A DNA stretch of 64,000 nucleotides from Facklamia hominis CCUG 36813 (lineage in GTDB: Bacteria > Bacillota > Bacilli > Lactobacillales > Aerococcaceae): NCBI RefSeq assembly GCF_000301035.1, contig NZ_JH932292.1, positions 1,292,857 through 1,356,856 on the forward strand, given 5' to 3'. Of the stretch, positions 47,068 through 48,479 are shown in pieces. Position numbers and translations under genes: made by a program. Positions within the stretch are counted from its first letter, which is position 1. The number at the start of each line of letters is the position of its first letter. Under the pieces are notes generated by a model that did not search any database, was not told the origin of the DNA, and saw only the letters and a list, made by a program, of their open reading frames with translations.

Positions 47068-47448
47068 ATGTCATATCGTAAATTAGGACGTAAAAGTGCT
47101 CAACGTAAAGCAATGTTACGTGATTTGACCACAGATGTGATTATTAATGAACGCATCGAAACGACCGAAGCTCGTGCAAAAGAGGTCCGTAAATCCGTTG
47201 AAAAAATGATTACTTTAGGTAAAAAAGGCGATTTAGCATCACGCCGTCGTGCAGCATCATTCTTACGTAATGAAATAGCTGATGCTCGTATCGAAGACGA
47301 TCAAGTGGTTATTGAGTCTGTATTAGATCGTTTATTTGATACTTATGCAGAACGTTATGCAGAGCGTAACGGAGGATATACTCGAATCCTTAAAAAAGGT
47401 CCACGTCGCGGAGACGGAGCACCGATGGTTATTATTGAATTGGTTTAA
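47068..47448 (+). CDS. rplQ: Ribosomal protein L17
   Basis: A 126-residue 50S protein of the tunnel-exit surface. It has '[25 protein letters not shown]', '[15 protein letters not shown]' and the C-terminal '[26 protein letters not shown]'. AAAGGAGG precedes it. It is the last gene of the S10-spc-alpha cluster; the structured element at 47.47-47.6 kb follows. Confidence 0.98.
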
Positions 47449-47464
47449 TGATTAATCAATTTAT

Positions 47465-47493
47465 TTCACTTTTATGATGAAGAGTGTTATGAT
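47465..47493 (+). promoter_or_regulatory. Possible promoter for ecfA1A2T
   Basis: TTCACT (47465-47470) and TATGAT (47488-47493) are 17 bases apart, just after rplQ. A start near 47500 would make the structured element below the leader of ecfA1. Confidence 0.4.
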
Positions 47494-47600
47494 TTCAAGG
47501 ATGAAGTCTAGCTCTATAGCAAGTAAGCCATGAGTTTGGCGGATTAAAGCTGGTTATCCGGCTTTAATCCTTGCTATCATCTTAAAGTGCTTTTTTTTTA
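47491..47600 (+). other. Structured RNA element ahead of ecfA1, terminator or attenuator
   Basis: A hairpin GATTTCA/TGAAGTC (47491-47508) is followed by a three-way junction. Its stem P1 is ATAGCAA/TTGCTAT (47516-47522, 47571-47577), P2 is GCCA/TGGC (47527-47540), and P3 is GGATTAAAGC/GCTTTAATCC (47541-47550, 47561-47570). A rival hairpin CTTTAA/TTAAAG (47562-47567, 47582-47587) uses the P3 arm and sits three bases before nine T residues. It is at least the rplQ terminator; its design suggests a switch. Confidence 0.55.
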
Positions 47601-47642
47601 AACAAAAATAAATTCAGCCGTGAATAGTTAGGAGTTCGTAAA

Positions 47643-48479
47643 GTGGAAGCTATCATAAACGTTCAAGATCTTTCTTTTCGTTACCCCAACGCCAACCGGG
47701 ATGCTTTAAGCTCGATTTCTTTTTCTGTTAATAAGGGAGAGTGGTTGGCAGTTATCGGACCCAATGGTTCTGGCAAGTCGACCTTGGCTAAGATGATCAA
47801 TGGTCTCCTGGCTCCTTATCAAGGGTCGGTGGAGGTAAACGGCCGGTTATTGAATGAGGATTCCTTGTGGCAGATCCGAAAAGAAGTAGGGATTGTCTTT
47901 CAAAATCCAGATAATCAATTTGTAGGGGCGACCGTCGAAGATGATGTTGCATTTGGCTTAGAAAATTTGGGGATTGATCGCCAAGAGATGGTTCAACGAA
48001 TCCATGAAGTCTTAAAACAGGTAAGAATGGAGGCTTTCTTAAAGAAAGAACCCGCTAAGTTATCTGGCGGGCAAAAGCAACGCGTCGCTATTGCAGGCAT
48101 ACTTGCTTTAAGACCTGATGTAATTATTTTAGATGAGTCGACGTCGATGCTGGATCCGCTAGGAAGAAAAACAATTATCAAGACGGTCCGTGAGCTTAAA
48201 GAAAAATACCAGCTCACGGTTATTTCGATTACTCATGATATTGATGAAGCTAGTCAAGCAGATCGTATTTTAATTCTTAAGGAAGGGAAAGTGATGAAAC
48301 TCGCTTTACCAGAAGCAGTATTTTCTTTGGGAGAAGATTTAATAGCAATGGGATTGGATTTACCCTTTGCTGAAAAATTACGTCTTTGTTTAAAGGAGCA
48401 AGATGTTCCTGTTCCTGACAAGTATTTAACCGAGGAGGAATTAGTAGAATGGCTATCCCAATCGTATTTGACCAAGTAG
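47643..48479 (+). CDS. ecfA1: ECF transporter ATPase A1
   Basis: A 278-residue ABC ATPase of the shared energy-coupling-factor module for vitamin and metal uptake. It has Walker A 'GPNGSGKST', Q-loop 'QNPDNQFVGATVEDD', signature 'LSGGQKQR', Walker B 'VIILDEST' and switch 'THD'. The start is GTG 47643 after TAGGAG. It overlaps ecfA2 by 31 bases. The position after rplQ is conserved in Firmicutes. Substrate-binding S components must be encoded elsewhere. Confidence 0.95.
   Translation: MEAIINVQDLSFRYPNANRDALSSISFSVNKGEWLAVIGPNGSGKSTLAKMINGLLAPYQGSVEVNGRLLNEDSLWQIRKEVGIVFQNPDNQFVGATVEDDVAFGLENLGIDRQEMVQRIHEVLKQVRMEAFLKKEPAKLSGGQKQRVAIAGILALRPDVIILDESTSMLDPLGRKTIIKTVRELKEKYQLTVISITHDIDEASQADRILILKEGKVMKLALPEAVFSLGEDLIAMGLDLPFAEKLRLCLKEQDVPVPDKYLTEEELVEWLSQSYLTK

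Follow-up and report, generated by a model that had tools for sequence, protein, structure and literature searches.

The window analyzed here, a 64,000-nucleotide stretch of the Facklamia hominis CCUG 36813 genome, contains the end of a ribosomal protein operon that closes with rpsM-rpsK-rpoA-rplQ, so that rplQ, encoding ribosomal protein L17, is its final gene. A gap of 194 bases (47449-47642) separates rplQ from ecfA1, the first gene of ecfA1A2T; this length had been given in a preliminary description of the locus and was the same when recounted. The gap holds a structured domain at 47467-47589, followed by the run of nine T that had also been noted earlier, which lies 43 bases before the ecfA1 start. 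The features of the locus are collected in Table 1.

Table 1. Genes and predicted RNA features between rplQ and ecfA1 (window coordinates).
Feature	Position	Strand	Basis and remarks
rplQ (ribosomal protein L17)	47068..47448	+	ORF list; relatives 69-91% identical by tblastn
Full L17DE-type domain including T run	47467..47599	+	RF01708 match 47481-47545; model R1, 117 bits
Closing helix, outer 5′ arm CACUUU	47467..47472	+	Pairs with 47584-47589; MFE; 5/6 pairs changed on both sides; cross-genus permutation 0/20000
Closing helix, inner 5′ arm GAUGA	47476..47480	+	Pairs with 47577-47581; MFE; 93.6% of cells paired, mostly invariant
L17DE core stem, 5′ arm AGAGU	47481..47485	+	Pairs with 47511-47515; Rfam alignment, MFE, covariation
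Conserved internal loop GUUAU	47486..47490	+	Opposite UA 47509-47510; Rfam alignment, relatives' sequences
Core apical stem-loop	47491..47508	+	Stem 47491-47497/47502-47508; MFE, covariation
L17DE core stem, 3′ arm GCUCU	47511..47515	+	Inside conserved GUCUAGCUC; Rfam alignment, covariation
Distal arm, three-way junction	47517..47576	+	MFE, covariation, relatives' folds; replaces single hairpin of Rfam L17DE
Junction stem P1	47517-47522/47571-47576	+	Folding
Junction stem P2	47527-47530/47537-47540 (hairpin 47527-47540)	+	Folding
Junction stem P3	47541-47553/47558-47570 (hairpin 47541-47570)	+	Folding
Closing helix, inner 3′ arm UCAUC	47577..47581	+	MFE, covariation
Closing helix, outer 3′ arm AAAGUG	47584..47589	+	MFE, covariation, permutation, relatives' folds
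T run (terminator U tract)	47591..47599	+	Sequence
ecfA1	47643..48479	+	GTG start; AGGAG at 47630-47634; ABC_tran match; ORF list

The stretch from 47460 to 47600 has a minimum free energy of -49.1 kcal/mol (z = -6.05), which none of 200 shuffled sequences equaled. The preliminary description had placed a three-way junction of P1, P2, and P3 in the gap. The junction reappeared on refolding, but the RNA is larger than that, and the junction makes up just its inner half; the core stem, internal loop, and apical stem (47481-47515), as well as the closing helix (47467-47480 with 47577-47589), had been overlooked. The 3′ arm of this helix ends at 47589, and a single C intervenes before the nine T.

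No Rfam 15 family matched anywhere in the window at its gathering cut-off in a covariance search. Under relaxed limits, the top match at the locus was the L17 downstream element, L17DE (RF01708), at 47481-47545 with 22.7 bits (E 0.049), below its gathering score of 37 bits; all other families scored at chance level. The search against Rfam that had been proposed earlier thus yielded nothing at the standard threshold and L17DE beneath it. Over GAGUGUUAUGAU and AGUCUAGCUCU the window agrees with RF01708 letter for letter. Of 60 related genomes, 59 had L17DE matches, with 36 exceeding the cut-off; the 11 Facklamia-group loci checked were all under it. A covariance model built from Facklamia-type elements alone (R1) recovered positions 3′ of rplQ in Enterococcus, Vagococcus, Trichococcus, Isobaculum, and Lacticaseibacillus, and at two loci (L040 and L043) its match spanned that of the Rfam model. 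Searched against its own genome, R1 found one real copy at 117 bits; additional candidate copies, at 18–19 bits, were dismissed as chance. Second weak RF01708 matches of 19–23 bits were seen in two related genomes (G019:C30:2498-2565, G019:C2:68752-68818, and G031:C14:64178-64254) and may likewise be due to chance.

The element shares with L17DE (Weinberg et al., 2010; PMC2864571) its place on the same strand directly 3′ of rplQ, the core GAGUGUUAUGAU...GUCUAGCUC including both of its stems (GAGU/GCUC and GAU/GUC) and the internal loop, and a distal stem after the core. Its host also falls within the range of the family, Lactobacillales or Listeria, the nearest rplQ being that of Facklamia (90% identity), in the Aerococcaceae. 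It differs in having a three-way junction in place of the single distal hairpin, in scoring below the Rfam cut-off, and in possessing a closing helix at the T run, which lies outside the 78-position Rfam model because that model (1–78) begins at the core and stops at the distal hairpin. Judged by sequence and predicted fold, then, the RNA in the rplQ-ecfA1 gap is a divergent L17DE variant, related to the family through R1 and short of an Rfam-level member; it can thus be classified, where the preliminary description had matched it to no known riboswitch class.

Comparison among relatives supported this structure. In an alignment of 28 distinct relatives from the Aerococcaceae, pairing held in 93% of cells, and 28 pairs had changed on both sides, compared with 10–14 when partners were slid. 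The covariation score was 0.439, against 0.156 for shuffled alignments and at most 0.09 with slid partners. Fitting the alignment to the structure biases it in favor of that structure; the slid controls and independent single-sequence folds agree nonetheless. In the latter, the closing helix formed in all 29 Aerococcaceae sequences, with three hairpins in 23 and two in the other six, the distal arm being a three-way junction in the former and a single hairpin in the latter. P1 and P3 of the junction covaried in the 28 distinct relatives, as a check proposed in the preliminary description had anticipated. A search of 141 loci located the core pair after rplQ in 129, compared with one chance match in 1.57 Mb of the same loci; this fraction should be read as indicative, since some loci duplicate one genome and 30 were fetched via L17DE itself. 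For the closing-helix arms of 36 representatives, the mean energy with their own partners was better than in all 20,000 partner permutations, which is not an exact probability because some representatives are related. The letters of this helix differ by lineage, reading CACUUU/AAAGUG in Enterococcus and Facklamia and AAGCC/GGCUU in the Neobacillus loci read. The unpaired positions of the core are near-invariant across Lactobacillales and Bacillaceae.

The element tracks rplQ and not ecfA1A2T. All 30 RF01708 matches found independently of rplQ lay directly after that gene, and ecfA1 occurred within 1 kb of L17DE at only 14 of the 29 loci with enough sequence, which argues that the RNA belongs to the 3′ end of the rplQ operon. 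Its neighbors elsewhere include genes for TrkH, Nramp (convergent), ribosomal protein L10, a GshA-like GCS2 protein, and a histidine phosphatase (convergent), among others. Two Aerococcus loci (L039 and L044) carry ecfA1 about 3.2–3.4 kb downstream of rplQ and still keep the element.

These data bear directly on the preliminary proposal of a ligand riboswitch or attenuator leader for ecfA1A2T, transcribed from its own promoter at about 47465–47493 and switching between the junction and a terminator hairpin (47562-47567/47582-47587). Promoter-like hexamers with a TG ahead of the second are indeed present, and the 43 bases between the T run and ecfA1 leave that gene short of room for a promoter of its own there. 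However, neither a consistent position upstream of ecfA1 nor a conserved, mutually exclusive platform was found, and the suggestion of a ligand or vitamin signal is contradicted wherever a different or convergent gene follows the element, which is retained where ecfA1 is absent downstream. The letters of the claimed promoter (TTCACT, 17 bases, TATGAT) exist, but promoter-like sites are no commoner here (three per 900 bases) than in shuffled sequence (2.7), and the hexamers coincide with elements of the RNA: the supposed −35 lies mostly within the closing helix, in its 5′ arm, and the supposed −10 (47488-47493) overlaps the conserved core. In Enterococcus, the spacing from this arm to the core is about 24 bases, too long for a promoter, and among the 129 loci tested, resemblance to TTGACA at promoter spacing was at best 4/6 in any relative. 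The shuffle scan and the 129-locus comparison rule against a promoter as the reason for the conserved letters. The rival stem fares no better. Although complementary in this sequence, it is fully paired in none of the 28 other relatives (1/29 overall), and compensatory changes, the support called for, are lacking in a stem that is complete solely here. The energy penalty for forcing it is 21.7 kcal/mol for the full RNA and 18 kcal/mol for one starting at 47500; its pair probability is 0.0, and as an expression platform it was rejected as neither conserved nor energetically feasible. A leader of this kind is highly improbable, and the vitamin-riboswitch lead is removed as false.

A narrower version, in which the core holds a real extended −10 promoter (TGTTATGAT) driving the downstream gene, is improbable too, if less so. 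The sequence leaves room for a weak promoter within the core: TGN precedes TATGAT, and the distance from the T run to ecfA1 is very short in this window. An RNA started there would be missing the 5′ closing arm, which would let it escape the terminator. Streptococcus, however, keeps the same core, and so do loci whose downstream gene is convergent; the poorer −10 TACGAT is common (26/129), and no −35 is conserved. Some supply of ecfA1A2T by another route is possible, as the 43-base interval suggests that partial read-through of the terminator may feed or attenuate these genes; this is the part of the attenuator idea that may still hold. A search of the available literature for rplQ-ecf read-through or rplQ 3′ sRNAs gave nothing useful; S. 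pyogenes SR79100 adjoins L17, and its orientation and 400-nt size are uninformative (PMC2765633).

Our preferred reading, to which we assign a probability of roughly 85%, is that the 3′ UTR of this ribosomal protein operon is a divergent L17DE whose core hairpin and three-way-junction arm are enclosed by a closing helix at the T run, the whole forming a predicted branched intrinsic terminator. As RNA polymerase leaves rplQ, the core and distal arm would fold first, and their folding would join the distant arms of the closing helix while the T run is being made; the transcript would then stop at the T run, its 3′ end capped by structure. Because the outer stem directly abuts the T run, it very likely ends the ribosomal protein transcript here. 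The preliminary description was right in seeing a structured RNA with a three-way junction, here found to be conserved, and its position beside a T run makes termination plausible. Like an intrinsic (Rho-independent) terminator, the locus has a helix (47467-47472/47584-47589) with nine T no more than one base beyond it, the U tract beginning at 47591. In contrast to such terminators, which have a short G/C-rich hairpin, the helix is A/U-rich, and what it encloses is not a short loop but some 110 nt of branched structure; a terminator consensus scan reported no classical hairpin at the closing helix. RNA maps of E. faecalis and E. faecium place L17DE inside an rplQ 3′ UTR of about 180 nt, which was grouped with the 3′ UTRs ending in intrinsic terminators (PMC7724050).

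Whether this is simply an ordinary rplQ terminator, with a core conserved for purely structural purposes, seems doubtful. The T run set directly against the closing helix and the reported Enterococcus 3′ UTR ends (PMC7724050) fit such a view, but the near-invariance of core letters that do not pair, from Lactobacillales to Bacillaceae, does not, nor does the persistence of the core in Streptococcus. There, the closing helix is not directly followed by a T run, and a separate terminator lies behind the element; Neobacillus-type elements come after an earlier terminator-like hairpin. Together, these cases indicate that termination is not the sole conserved role. In several Streptococcus loci (L064, L065, L105, and others), the GAGUGUU core strand can also pair over seven positions with AACACUC 3′ of the distal hairpin; this would exclude the GAGU/GCUC core stem and may represent a conserved alternative fold.

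The near-invariant unpaired letters of the core suggest a binding partner, and L17 or another operon protein is our leading guess, after Weinberg et al. A less certain step of the proposed mechanism is that the core would be held by such a binder, likeliest an operon ribosomal protein such as L17, which could tune termination, the stability of the mRNA 3′ end, or read-through into the next gene. It is conceivable, if rather unlikely, that L17DE acts as a factor-responsive branched terminator in which formation of the closing helix at the T run depends on whether a protein of the operon (e.g., L17) is bound to the core. If so, ribosomal protein supply would be coupled to 3′-end formation of the operon and to read-through into the gene that follows, which here belongs to the energy module for vitamin uptake.

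Regulation from 3′ UTRs is rare in bacteria. This counts against feedback from the rplQ 3′ UTR, in which L17 or another operon protein would bind the core and regulate the operon with no requirement for termination, as does the lack of a match to the core in a search of this genome's 23S rRNA. On the other side stand a core sequence invariant beyond the needs of pairing, a constant position after rplQ, the Streptococcus elements that lack an integral T run, and the earlier proposal of a protein-feedback role for L17DE (Weinberg et al., 2010, PMC2864571; also PMC7247131). We consider such feedback a tentative possibility, well short of an even chance. Mimicry of 23S rRNA by the core was set aside, with no convincing copy there. 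One 23S rRNA gene, close to the contig end (G000:C1:1894554-1895950), matches only in pieces, perhaps because the chromosome ends are masked or imperfect in sequence; a complete copy lies at G000:C1:182-3059. The L17 r-leader of Actinobacteria and Proteobacteria (PMC7247131) is similarly a structured RNA tied to a ribosomal protein gene with a suspected protein ligand; the present element, however, lies 3′ of its gene while leaders lie 5′, and no shared motif has been shown.

L17DE itself is already known, and is present here in divergent form. Its description in 2010 came with no known mechanism, and the literature surveyed has supplied none since; published comparative work places it in the rplQ 3′ UTR, with its function listed as unknown (PMC2864571, PMC7247131). 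As far as shown by the literature surveyed and Rfam 15, what is new is the three-way-junction subgroup under the cut-off, the closing helix at the T run, and the relatives in Neobacillus, Cytobacillus, and Lysinibacillus. A covarying closing helix at the T run offers a testable mechanism for L17DE, that of a branched terminator with a conserved core, and shows that the Rfam model is truncated. The three-way-junction subgroup of Facklamia and relatives and the Bacillaceae relatives are currently unannotated. In the latter (L058, L062, L066, L067, L071, L074, L089, L097, L103, L107, L111, and L112), an L17DE-like core below the Rfam cut-off follows rplQ, sitting behind a separate conserved terminator-like hairpin that reads GGGCG...GCCC-T run in the Neobacillus and Cytobacillus loci.
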